Origin: Clostridia bacterium
GTDB taxonomy: Bacteria > Bacillota > Clostridia > Christensenellales > CAG-1252
DNA length: 64,000 nucleotides
Reading direction: 5' to 3'
NCBI GenBank assembly: GCA_024685775.1
Contig: JAIKVL010000004.1
Coordinates: forward strand, 1-64,000
Made by a program: the position numbers and the translations under genes. The notes beneath the pieces are model-generated. The model worked only from the letters and a program-made list of their open reading frames with translations. It was not told the origin of the DNA and did no database searches. This document shows, one piece after another, positions 35,025 through 40,438 of this stretch. Each line of letters starts with the position of its first letter. The first letter of the stretch is position 1.

Positions 35025-35111
35025 TGGTGCCGAAGGCGGGACTCGAACCCGCACGGAGTTGCCCCCGAGGGATTTTAAGTCCCTTGCGTCTGCCATTCCG
35101 CCACTTCGGCA
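35025..35111 (-). tRNA. tRNA-Leu (anticodon TAA)
   Basis: 87 nt including encoded CCA. The acceptor TGCCGAA pairs with TTCGGCA. The anticodon loop CTTAAAA gives TAA, there is a long variable arm (class II), and the T-loop is GGTTCGAGTCC. It reads UUA/UUG codons. It is 5 bp after tRNA-Cys and directly before the thrS T-box leader. Confidence 0.97.
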
Positions 35112-35116
35112 ACTAT

Positions 35117-35191
<75 letters not shown>

Positions 35192-35268
35192 ATAACGCTA
35201 TATTATATATGATTCGCTCGCGTACGATGCGACATATATTCACAATTTGAAGCAGCAACGACTGCTGC

Positions 35269-35340
35269 CGCGCGGTTGCTATCGCAACCGAATCCCATCT
35301 TTTGGGGATAATGCGAAAAGCAATTTGGAGCGGGAGACGG
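35269..35340. repeat. 72-bp duplicate of the tRNA-Gly 3' end and flank
   Basis: Matches 35405-35476 at 69 of 72 positions (three transitions), 136 bp away. It contains 15 nt of the tRNA-Gly 3' end (35326-35340), then two hairpins read leftward: ATCCC/GGGAT and GGTTGC/GCAACC with a GAYA loop. The rest of the tRNA is missing, so this is a truncated copy. Confidence 0.85.
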
Positions 35341-35404
35341 TGTGCCCGATCAAGTCGGGAACCTCCGCGTTGCTCCGGTGCGGCCCCTGCGGGTCTCGCG
35401 CTAT

Positions 35405-35476
35405 CGCGCGGTTGCTGTCGCAACCGAATCCCGTCTTTTAGGGATAATGCGAAAAGCAATTTGGAGCGGGAGACGG
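35405..35476. repeat. 72-bp unit covering the tRNA-Gly 3' end and flank
   Basis: Partner of 35269-35340. Bases 35462-35476 are the true tRNA-Gly 3' end. The 64 bp between the two units has more short palindromes (GCGCGATAGCGCG-type), and 35192-35268 is AT-rich with a GCAGCA/TGCTGC stem. No gene is seen anywhere in 35192-35461. Confidence 0.85.
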
Positions 35477-35536
35477 GATTCGGACCCGCGACATTTGCCT
35501 TGGCAAGGCAACGCTCTACCACTGAGCCACTCCCGC
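35462..35536 (-). tRNA. tRNA-Gly (anticodon GCC)
   Basis: 75 nt with encoded CCA and U discriminator. The acceptor GCGGGAG pairs with CTCCCGC, the anticodon stem TTGCC/GGCAA encloses the loop TTGCCAA, and the T-arm is CGGG TCCGAAT CCCG. First gene of the Gly-Cys-Leu-(T-box)-thrS run, with its own promoter 15 bp upstream. Confidence 0.97.
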
Positions 35537-37244: not shown

Positions 37245-37595
37245 CTAAACCTTAATGCCGACGACGTTTACGTTCACCTGCATCACGCGCATTCCCGTAA
37301 ACGCCTCGACGGAATAGGTCACGACCGAGCGAAGAGATTCGGTGACCGCGTCAACGAGCACCCCCTGCTTCAAAATCACGAAAACGTCGATAAAGATCTT
37401 ATTATCGACGGTCGTAACGCGTATTCCTTTGGTGTTGCCGTTTTGTTTGAATAAAGAAGCGAGAGAATCGGTAAATCTTCTCGAAACGAGCTCGACCACG
37501 CCGTAACATTCCGAGGCGGCGCGACAAGCGCACATTGCCACGGCTTCGTCCGACACGGTGATTTTGCCGTATTTGTTGGAAGTCTTTACAGCCAT
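37245..37595 (-). CDS. Asp23/Gls24 family envelope protein (YloU)
   Basis: The 116 residues are an Asp23-family domain: GKITVSDEAVAMCACRAASECYGVVEL, KGIRVTTVDNKIFIDVFVILKQGV and FTGMRVMQVNVNVVGI. Such proteins are linked to envelope stress and lipid metabolism. The pairing with fakA is conserved. The open frame extends to 37664, but the ATG at 37595 is preceded by GGAGAG and starts at the family's MAVKT-like N-terminus. Divergent from rpmB. Confidence 0.92.
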   Translation of the reverse strand: MAVKTSNKYGKITVSDEAVAMCACRAASECYGVVELVSRRFTDSLASLFKQNGNTKGIRVTTVDNKIFIDVFVILKQGVLVDAVTESLRSVVTYSVEAFTGMRVMQVNVNVVGIKV

Positions 37596-37985: not shown

Positions 37986-38020
37986 AAAAAAGATCCTCGG
38001 GTTTCGAGGATCTTTTTTTT
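37986..38020. terminator. Terminator between rpmB and spoVM (bidirectional)
   Basis: AAAAAAGATCCTCG and CGAGGATCTTTTTT form a long stem with a short loop, followed by T-runs on the plus strand and A/T tracts on both sides. It ends rpmB and probably the yicC-to-spoVM transcript. Confidence 0.9.
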
Positions 38021-38040: not shown

Positions 38041-38124
38041 CTACTTTCGCGCGCGTTTCTTTCCGCAAAACAGCCGCAAGACCGCTTTCAAAAAAGACGG
38101 CGGATTTACGCAAACCATTTTCAA
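38041..38124 (-). CDS. spoVM: Stage V sporulation protein M (tiny membrane-curvature peptide)
   Basis: Encodes 27 residues, MKMVCVNPPSFLKAVLRLFCGKKRARK by translation from TTG (split here as MKMVCVNPPSFLKA and VLRLFCGKKRARK). AAGGAGG lies 7 nt before the TTG. The next ATG is two codons on. Bacillus SpoVM is a 26-residue amphipathic helix that marks the forespore surface and recruits the coat protein SpoIVA. Shared positions here are Pro9, Phe11-Leu12, Arg17, Gly21 and a basic end. The site between thiN and rpmB is exactly that of spoVM in Bacillus. No other product fits the 114-bp space. Confidence 0.85.
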   Translation of the reverse strand: MKMVCVNPPSFLKAVLRLFCGKKRARK

Positions 38125-38136
38125 AGCCACACCTCC

Positions 38137-38736
38137 TTATCCGAATTTATGATAAAGCAGTGCGCTTCCCTCCTTTACGCTGACGAACACCGAGTTTTCC
38201 GTGCATTCGTTGGACAATCCGAGCGTGTCGCTTTTGGTCAGGACGGCACCGTCCGCAGGGTATTTGAGCCCTTTCGCCTTTATTATATGCACGGTTTCCG
38301 AAAAAGGTACGATCGATAAAACGTCTCCCGCTGCCACGTCCAAAAACAAATTCCCGTCGAGATAGTAAAGATCGAAATCGTCTCCGCGAAGGACGGCGGT
38401 CGCGCCGAGATCGCGGGCGAGTTTCAAAAGGTGAAGATTATAAAGCGAATGGTCGGGTCTGCCGCCCCATCCGCCGTAAATATCGATAAAGAAATAATTC
38501 CGCAGGATCGCCTCGCGGATCGCGAGTTCCCCATCCGAAAAATCCTTTTCGGCTTGAACGGTCAAGACGCCTATATCCTTCGGGACGAAGCCGAGACTGT
38601 CCATATCCCCGACGACGAGATCGGGGCGGATCTTGTTTTCGAGAGCGCGAAGATAGCCTTCGTCCGCGGCGATCACGAAATCCGAGGGCAGCATCCGTTT
38701 GAATTTTTGCGACAGGACGATCGCCGCTTTTTTCAT
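38137..38736 (-). CDS. thiN: Thiamine pyrophosphokinase
   Basis: Converts thiamine to thiamine diphosphate. The 199 residues show AADEGYLRALENKIRPDLVVGDMDS, the metal motif EKDFSDGELAI, and the substrate loop GGWGGRPDHSLYNLHLL. The usual GGxGGRxDH is intact. The start overlaps rpe by 4 nt. The order rpe-thiN-spoVM is as in Bacillus. Confidence 0.96.
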   Translation of the reverse strand: MKKAAIVLSQKFKRMLPSDFVIAADEGYLRALENKIRPDLVVGDMDSLGFVPKDIGVLTVQAEKDFSDGELAIREAILRNYFFIDIYGGWGGRPDHSLYNLHLLKLARDLGATAVLRGDDFDLYYLDGNLFLDVAAGDVLSIVPFSETVHIIKAKGLKYPADGAVLTKSDTLGLSNECTENSVFVSVKEGSALLYHKFG

Positions 38737-39383
38737 CCGCGCATCACCTTGATCGCGGCGACCTTATCATCCGCTTTGAAGGTCGCGCTTCCGGCGACGA
38801 GGACGGTGATCCCGAGATCGCGGAATTTCGCGGCGTTGCCGAGCGTTACGCCGCCGTCCAGTTCCAAAAGGATATCGCGCCCGCTCTTTTTGATCTCTTC
38901 GGCGAGGACTTTGATATTCTCATCCACGGTTTCGATATAAGACTGACCGCCGAATCCCGGGAAAACTCCCATCAGGACGATCATATCGACGAGATCCATA
39001 TAGTCTTTCACAAGCGAAAAATCCTTGTCGGGATTGACGACGAGCCCGCATTTCACGCCCTTATTTTTGATTTTCAAAAGCGTCTCTCTCGGATTCTTCG
39101 ACGCTTCCGGATGGAAGGTCACGAAATCCGCGCCCGCGTCGCAAAAGCGTTCGACGTACAATTCGGGTTCGACGATCATCAAATGCACGTCGAGCGGCAA
39201 ATTCGTGTGCGGACGGATCGCTTTGATCATCGGCATCCCGAACGTGATATTCGGGACGAATCTTCCGTCCATAACGTCGCAGTGGACGAGATCCGCTCCC
39301 CACTTTTCGACGTTTTCCACCGTCTCGCCCATATTCGCGAAATCACCCGACAAAATCGACGGAGCAACTTTAACAGAACTCAT
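38733..39383 (-). CDS. rpe: Ribulose-phosphate 3-epimerase
   Basis: Interconverts ribulose-5-P and xylulose-5-P. The 216-residue TIM barrel has VAPSILSGDFANM, HCDVMDGRFVPNITFGMP, LDVHLMIVEP, TFHPEAS and ELDGGVTLGNA, so the metal/acid-base Asp and His residues are present. The phosphate-side loop reads MGVFPGFGGQ, where MSVNPGFGGQ is usual. The frame is open to 39434, but the ATG at 39383 begins at the family N-terminus with a purine-rich GGGGG site upstream. It lies 14 bp after rlmN. The prpC-prkC-rsgA genes found here in Bacillus are absent. Confidence 0.96.
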   Translation of the reverse strand: MSSVKVAPSILSGDFANMGETVENVEKWGADLVHCDVMDGRFVPNITFGMPMIKAIRPHTNLPLDVHLMIVEPELYVERFCDAGADFVTFHPEASKNPRETLLKIKNKGVKCGLVVNPDKDFSLVKDYMDLVDMIVLMGVFPGFGGQSYIETVDENIKVLAEEIKKSGRDILLELDGGVTLGNAAKFRDLGITVLVAGSATFKADDKVAAIKVMRG

Positions 39384-39397
39384 ACTCTTTTCCCCCT

Positions 39398-40438
39398 CTA
39401 TTCCTGTTGATATTTTGCGCGAAGCTGTCCGCACGCGCCTTCGATATCCGCGCCCATCGTTCGGCGAACCGTGGCTTCCACGCCGCCCTTTTCGAGAAGA
39501 CCCTGAAAACGATACGCGTCTTTACGGCTCGTCCCTTCGAGACCCCTCTCTTTAACGAAGTTCAAAACGATCAAATTCACGATACACGGAAACCCTTTTA
39601 CTTTTTCGATCAACGCGGCGGCGTCCTTCTCGCCGTCGTTGACGCCCTTTATCAGGGAATACTCGAAGACGACGCGCCGTTTGGTCTTCTCGAACCAGCG
39701 TTTTGCCGCGGCGATCACGTCAGAAACGCCGTATCTTTTATTGATCGGCATAATGGACGAACGGACTTCGTCCCGCGCGGCGTGCAGAGAAAAGGTCATC
39801 GTCACGGGGATATCTTCTTCGATGAAACGGTCGAATTTCTCCAAGAGTCCGCACGTCGAAAGCGAGATATTCCGATAGCTGACGTTCAGCCCTTTTTCGG
39901 CGTTTACGAGGCGAAGGAATTTTACGACGTTGTCATAGTTATCCAAGGGTTCCCCGCTCCCCATTAAGACGATATTCGTGATCTTCCGATTTTTGAGATC
40001 GCCGCCGTCGAACGCGTTTGCGAGGATGACCTCGCCGAGGATCTCGCCCGCGGACAGGTTTCGTTTGAGTCCGTTTAGCCCCGACGCGCAAAACGCGCAA
40101 TTCATTCGACAACCGACCTGCGTAGAAACGCAAAGCGTGTTTCCGTACTTATAGCGCATCAAAACGCCTTCGACCATATCGCCGTCCCACAAAGAAAACA
40201 GAAACTTTACGGTATCGTCGATCTCGGAGCGAAAAGAACGGAATATCTTCATTCCGGTCGAGACGAAACCTTCGCTCGAAAGTTTTTGCTTCAAAGCCGC
40301 GGAGATCGTCGAAATATCCTCGGGCTCTTTACCCTGCTGAACGCCGAGATAGATCTGCTCCGCGCGGAAAGGTTTTTCTCCGAGCGAAAGCATCGTTTCT
40401 TTTAACTCATCAAGCGTAAGATCGGCAAGCAGTTTCAT
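39398..40438 (-). CDS. rlmN: Dual-specificity RNA methyltransferase RlmN
   Basis: Radical-SAM enzyme adding C2-methyl to A2503 of 23S rRNA and A37 of some tRNAs. The 346 residues have the cluster motif CRMNCAFC, STQVGCRMNC, LMGSGEPLDNYDNVVKFLRL, and a C-terminal VEATVRRTMGADIEGACGQL carrying the second conserved cysteine. It overlaps rsmB by 4 nt. Confidence 0.97.
   Translation of the reverse strand: MKLLADLTLDELKETMLSLGEKPFRAEQIYLGVQQGKEPEDISTISAALKQKLSSEGFVSTGMKIFRSFRSEIDDTVKFLFSLWDGDMVEGVLMRYKYGNTLCVSTQVGCRMNCAFCASGLNGLKRNLSAGEILGEVILANAFDGGDLKNRKITNIVLMGSGEPLDNYDNVVKFLRLVNAEKGLNVSYRNISLSTCGLLEKFDRFIEEDIPVTMTFSLHAARDEVRSSIMPINKRYGVSDVIAAAKRWFEKTKRRVVFEYSLIKGVNDGEKDAAALIEKVKGFPCIVNLIVLNFVKERGLEGTSRKDAYRFQGLLEKGGVEATVRRTMGADIEGACGQLRAKYQQE

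Follow-up and report, generated by a model that had tools for sequence, protein, structure and literature searches.

The question raised by the interval between thiN and rpmB in this MAG is whether a 27-codon open reading frame (ORF) found there encodes SpoVM, the textbook curvature-sensing peptide, and from which promoter such a gene would be expressed. The window considered here is the whole stretch of 64,000 nucleotides analysed, from contig JAIKVL010000004.1 of assembly GCA_024685775.1. The preferred reading, given a probability of about three in four on sequence comparisons, is that the ORF is the spoVM of an uncultured gut bacterium from a Christensenellales-like clostridial lineage, that its product would anchor SpoIVA, and that it would be expressed from a mother-cell promoter inside thiN that points to sigma-K.

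The ORF occupies 38041..38124 on the minus strand, from a TTG at 38124-38122 to a TAG stop at 38043-38041, with the product MKMVCVNPPSFLKAVLRLFCGKKRARK; an earlier note on this DNA, which had reported a 27-codon, TTG-started spoVM at these positions, gave no strand, and the plus strand across the interval translates as LLSRAFLSAK.... The full Shine-Dalgarno sequence AAGGAGG that it described is found at 38132..38138 (minus strand), 7 nt 5' of the TTG, and overlaps the TAA stop of thiN (38139-38137) by two bases. The same TTG-started peptide lies directly 3' of thiN in 12/12 same-genus genomes having thiN, and in all 12 GAGGT(G/A) follows the thiN stop immediately or at most 8 nt away. The TTG is taken as the true start because it stands at the same spot in 12/12 genus members and an alternative ATG at codon 3 is not universal, being absent from three of them (L006, L007, L009). 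TTG starts accompany a distance of only a few bases between the thiN stop and spoVM (genus g1 together with G015 and G019; L014, L015); in other members of the order the start codon is mostly ATG.

The slot between thiN and rpmB is as the earlier note described it. The thiN gene (thiamine pyrophosphokinase, 38137..38736; TIGR01378 at 114 bits, PF04263, PF04265) lies on the same minus strand as spoVM and is preceded by rpe (ribulose-phosphate 3-epimerase, 38733..39434, minus strand; PF00834 at 227.7 bits); rpmB (ribosomal protein L28, 37778..37975; TIGR00009 at 62.9 bits) is on the plus strand, convergent with spoVM. A hairpin at 37990..38014, AAGATCCTCG-GGTTT-CGAGGATCTT, seen by eye in the sequence, assigned to neither strand and bordered by A/T runs on both sides, is the predicted bidirectional terminator separating spoVM and rpmB. 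The gene order continues past rpmB with an asp23/yloU-like gene (37245..37595, minus strand; PF03780 at 84.8 bits), part of the conserved spoVM neighbourhood, and then a FakA-like gene; in relatives without thiN, spoVM remains behind rpe. Just downstream of the FakA-like gene, at 35025-35536 on the minus strand, are three tRNA genes (Leu, Cys, Gly) across which spurious ORFs had been listed. A contig search with ThiN gave no match, and one with SpoIVA gave 15 loci from 'Christensenella sp.' and rumen Clostridia MAGs.

The ORF is confirmed by its pattern of substitution as a real gene under purifying selection rather than a chance frame. In the comparison of the thiN-rpmB gap among relatives that had been proposed as a check, pN is lower than pS in 66/66 pairs of genus genomes, and pN/pS is 0.41 in frame, whereas shifting the frame gives 1.05 and 1.48. 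A profile (A1), made from an alignment of 22 peptides and searched in 101 relatives from the order, matches 60/101 genomes at E<=1e-3, against an expectation of about 0.1; nearly all of the matching loci are ORFs of 21-34 residues with a good ribosome site and start. One match, in G084, was rejected as a false positive, having neither start codon nor ribosome site. Selection in frame and this excess of matches together refute a chance ORF.

The peptide itself matches neither PF08183 nor NF033436, and Pfam, NCBIfam and PDB searches with it were also empty; the cut-off of the NCBI model SpoVM_broad (NF033436) is exceeded in 0/101 relatives, in keeping with the earlier expectation that the gene is likely unannotated. 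B. subtilis SpoVM, used as a control, passes the PF08183 and NF033436 searches, and a sequence from G030, MRFYCIKLPRFVGAVIRFVLGK, is intermediate toward the Bacillus form and matches SpoVM_broad at 1.9e-6. Galperin et al. had left open the existence of distant SpoVMs in those clostridia for which searches came back empty (PMC3533761). An order-wide divergent SpoVM is missed by the NCBI model in 101/101 genomes, a gap that a 65-sequence alignment (A2) can repair.

Pro9 is invariant in these very short peptides (about 21-30 aa), both in the order (64/64) and in the outgroup (45/45). The residues by which the earlier note recognized SpoVM (Pro9, Phe11-Leu12, Arg17 and Gly21) are present. Residues critical in B. 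subtilis SpoVM include Lys2, Ile6 and Ile15 (PMC5607322) as well as Arg17; at the key sites the peptide carries K2, V6 and V15 (conservative hydrophobics) and R17, and among order members I/F/V/L occupy position 6 in 64/64 and R/K position 17 in 60/64. The amphipathic helix suggested for inspection is borne out by a helical moment after Pro9 of 0.60, above 98.6% of shuffles (B. subtilis SpoVM, 0.51). The peptide also travels with SpoIVA: the profile matches in 56/84 SpoIVA-positive vs 4/17 SpoIVA-negative genomes (E<=1e-3, p=0.002), and the association is retained among genomes outside the profile (p=0.011). Of the four SpoIVA-negative genomes with the peptide, three have a completeness of 77% or less and one is split over 420 contigs. 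Identity as a divergent SpoVM orthologue is supported by these sequence features.

When the 64 SpoVMs of the order are compared with 45 from other clostridial orders, Cys5 is found in 60/64 vs 0/45, Val dominating in the latter; Pro8 is present in 10/45. Across these alignments Cys5 is a signature of the order, and Pro8-Pro9 is common in clostridial SpoVM; of the divergence at Val, Cys and Pro-Pro pointed out earlier, the cysteine thus retains its weight and the proline pair is not special. The gene shares with B. subtilis spoVM a product of 26-27 aa with Pro9, Phe11-Leu12, Arg17, Gly21, a basic residue 2 and hydrophobic residues 6 and 15, a thiN-side neighbourhood, and a SpoIVA in which the partner residue Gly486 is present; it differs in having Val/Cys/Val at 4-6, Pro8, a TTG start and no match to PF08183/NF033436. 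It differs further in its candidate promoter inside thiN with an AC-type -35, whereas B. subtilis spoVM is in the sigma-E set (PMC517825). The C. difficile gene is likewise clostridial, near rpmB, paired with SpoIVA and encodes Pro9; however, it is controlled by sigma-E behind CD25622 and is largely dispensable, whereas the promoter predicted here is sigma-K-like, and C. difficile SpoIVA has Asn in place of the Gly486 kept here (PMC5607322).

The remaining sporulation genes that the earlier note proposed to look for (spoIVA, spo0A and the genes of sigma-E/F/G/K) are all found, and neither their absence nor a lack of conservation of the peptide in relatives, which it had named as grounds for dropping spoVM, was observed. 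SpoIVA is full length (657 bits) and keeps Gly486, which in B. subtilis is partnered with residue 6 of SpoVM; Spo0A is above its cut-off at 238 bits; spoIIAA-spoIIAB-sigF, spoIIGA-sigE-sigG and sigK are in the genome, SigF, SigE, SigG and SigK being clear best matches that nevertheless fall short of the strict equivalog cut-offs. Also encoded is GPR, the protease that degrades SASPs (G000 C16:102606-103328). A search for alpha/beta SASPs (PF00269) was negative for this genome and for all 20 genomes of its family. Endospore capacity, which the earlier note took the peptide to imply, is likely from this gene content as far as Spo0A, the sigma factors, SpoIVA and GPR go; the case is incomplete because alpha/beta SASPs are absent despite them. 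The morphogenesis genes are kept, yet a classical spore core is not assertable, and what these genes build may be something other than a classical endospore. GPR without a PF00269 alpha/beta SASP is seen in 51 genomes of the order, the source genome included (G000 and 100 relatives); such genomes would have either a divergent SASP or some other substrate for GPR.

Within the genus, no site close to spoVM matched a sigma-E consensus from B. subtilis. A freer mother-cell -10 search upstream of spoVM, with which alone the site at -165 surfaced, gave sites of the CATAT(A/T)(A/C/T) type between -162 and -167, within thiN, in 12/12 genus genomes. The -10 box of the window, GCATATAAT at 38282..38290 (minus strand), lies 165 nt 5' of the spoVM start and forms the His-Ile-Ile codons of thiN; a -35 box of AC type, GTACC, is at 38306..38310 on the same strand, 16 nt from CATATAAT, and the whole element reads GTACC-16 nt-GCATATAAT. 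Within the genus the codon window of the element has a synonymous divergence of 0.128 vs a mean of 0.502, the lowest of all thiN windows; the GTA, CAT and ATA codons are identical in 12/12 genomes, as is GTACC. Over wider distances AC-N15-18-CATA occurs at the homologous codons in 21/33 spoVM-adjacent thiN genes vs 0/28 others at that place, and GCATATA occurs in frame in 26/33 thiN genes preceding spoVM (six families) vs 0/28 others there. All 26 use CAT and ATA at these codons, which elsewhere in the same genes account for 49% (CAT) and 36% (ATA). Since the motif is so distributed, ThiN His-Ile is kept almost only in ThiNs carrying the site. Boxes of this kind are found immediately 5' of spoVM in loci that have a separate gap upstream of the gene or that lack thiN.

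The thiN-internal element is promoter-like and, in the genes compared, present only when spoVM follows. In 20 outgroup genomes the promoter search gave 2 sigma-K-like sites vs 0.68 expected, and the thiN-embedded form therefore looks order-specific; stand-alone AC-type sites do exist in some other families. As far as the searched literature shows, a regulatory element within thiN has not been described. The candidate would represent a developmental promoter fixed in a housekeeping gene, recognisable from synonymous codons that do not vary and from amino acids of ThiN that are kept only where the site is.

In C. difficile sigma-E and sigma-K have a -10 in common, the -35 is ATA for sigma-E and AC (with -10 CATATAAT) for sigma-K, and the preference is set by Gln/Arg at sigma position 217 (PMC3789822). 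The SigE of this genome reads GISQSYISR and its SigK GISRSYISR, with Gln in SigE and Arg in SigK. The arrangement expected of a sigma-K site, a -10 CATANNNT with an AC -35, is found in the window as GTACC-16 nt-CATATAAT; C. difficile sigK P2 shares this -10 and an AC -35 about 16-17 nt upstream, and its SigK likewise has Arg at the discriminating position (PMC3789822), whereas the site predicted here lies within a housekeeping coding sequence, in front of spoVM. Among stand-alone spoVM promoters of 20 order genomes the -35 is AC in 16/20 and (A/C)TA in 0/20; for spoIVA in the same genomes it is AC-only in 0/19 and (A/C)TA-only in 13/19 (p=1.5e-8). The p-values are optimistic: presence of a CATA box was the condition for including the 20 promoters, the -35 spacing was not fixed before the data were inspected, and related genomes were compared. 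The spoIVA boxes are TCATA/GCATA/TTCTA/GAATA, sigma-E-like, and within the genus TCATA/GCATA/GAATATT before CGTATAAAT; the spoVM boxes are thus distinct from the sigma-E boxes of the same genomes. Genome-wide, the strict promoter pattern gave 5 matches vs 6 in a reversed control, no enrichment. From these boxes spoVM is probably transcribed from inside thiN, late, by sigma-K.

That spoVM is real and its embedded promoter an ordinary sigma-E site with an unusual -35, with timing as in B. subtilis and C. difficile, is the strongest competitor, though a fairly improbable one. It draws on the sigma-E dependence of spoVM in C. difficile (PMC5607322) and in B. subtilis (PMC517825), and on a -10 sequence common to sigma-E and sigma-K (PMC3789822); the -35 boxes of spoIVA and spoVM in the same genomes differ as described, and the residues that set the preference, Gln in SigE and Arg in SigK, are both conserved, which speaks against it. 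It is unlikely that the element is a vegetative sigma-A promoter and SpoVM constitutive. GCA precedes TATA without exception (26/26), down to a third-position G and the CAT codon, none of which sigma-A needs, even though GCATATAAT contains TATAAT; GTACC is a poor match to TTGACA, and CATAAACT, CATAATAT and CATATTTT are poor sigma-A boxes, although some stand-alone -35 boxes (TTCACA, GTGACA) come close to TTGACA and one genome-wide pattern match (L248) resembles a sigma-A promoter before a long ORF. The site is also tied to a sporulation gene.

Less probable again is the explanation in which structure of the ThiN protein or of the RNA, and no promoter, accounts for the conserved stretch, spoVM being expressed through translational coupling and read-through from rpe-thiN. 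The Shine-Dalgarno sequence does overlap the thiN stop, or lie within a few bases of it, throughout the genus, and the stretch has conserved VP(F/Y) and HI residues; however, VP...HI occurs almost only in ThiNs preceding spoVM, 28 others being without the motif there, the synonymous choices GTA, CAT and ATA are frozen, and the same kind of boxes are retained directly before spoVM where thiN is absent. A chance ORF or decaying remnant in a lineage that lost sporulation is very improbable: the absence of alpha/beta SASPs from the family would suit it, as would a gene-based predictor that called Christensenellales MAGs mostly non-sporulating (PMC12536801), but spoVM is under purifying selection in frame, SpoIVA, Spo0A, all four sporulation sigma factors and GPR are intact, and 13/17 genomes without SpoIVA are also without the peptide.

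Under the preferred reading, a SpoIVA-anchoring SpoVM expressed from inside thiN, the peptide would be made in the mother cell from an mRNA starting at GTACC-16 nt-GCATATAAT; the leader would measure about 150 nt, and the TTG start would be weak. By analogy with B. subtilis the peptide may form an amphipathic helix lying on the curved outer membrane of the forespore, where its residue 6 and SpoIVA Gly486 would anchor SpoIVA at the forespore. The AC-type -35 points to sigma-K rather than sigma-E; with a sigma-K-type -35, SpoVM would therefore be made after SpoIVA, securing or finishing the coat instead of recruiting SpoIVA first. Whether mother-cell expression of SpoVM has become late (sigma-K) instead of early (sigma-E) in this order, by way of a thiN-embedded promoter that constrains ThiN (His-Ile), is judged an even chance. 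If true, SpoVM would be a late clamp and not the first landmark that recruits SpoIVA, and the predicted timing of spoVM is a testable claim on the order in which SpoIVA and SpoVM act.

For UBA1242, sporulation genes have been called unexpected (PMC12306168). In family f28 (L129, L130 and L131, from G089, G046 and G069 respectively) a SpoVM-like peptide has an N-terminal extension and the core KIICIKAPKWMRP(L/F)LKPF(V/I)KK; it is encoded close behind spoIVA, not thiN, in genomes of 0.8-0.9 Mb that are near 100% complete and keep Spo0A and SpoIVA.
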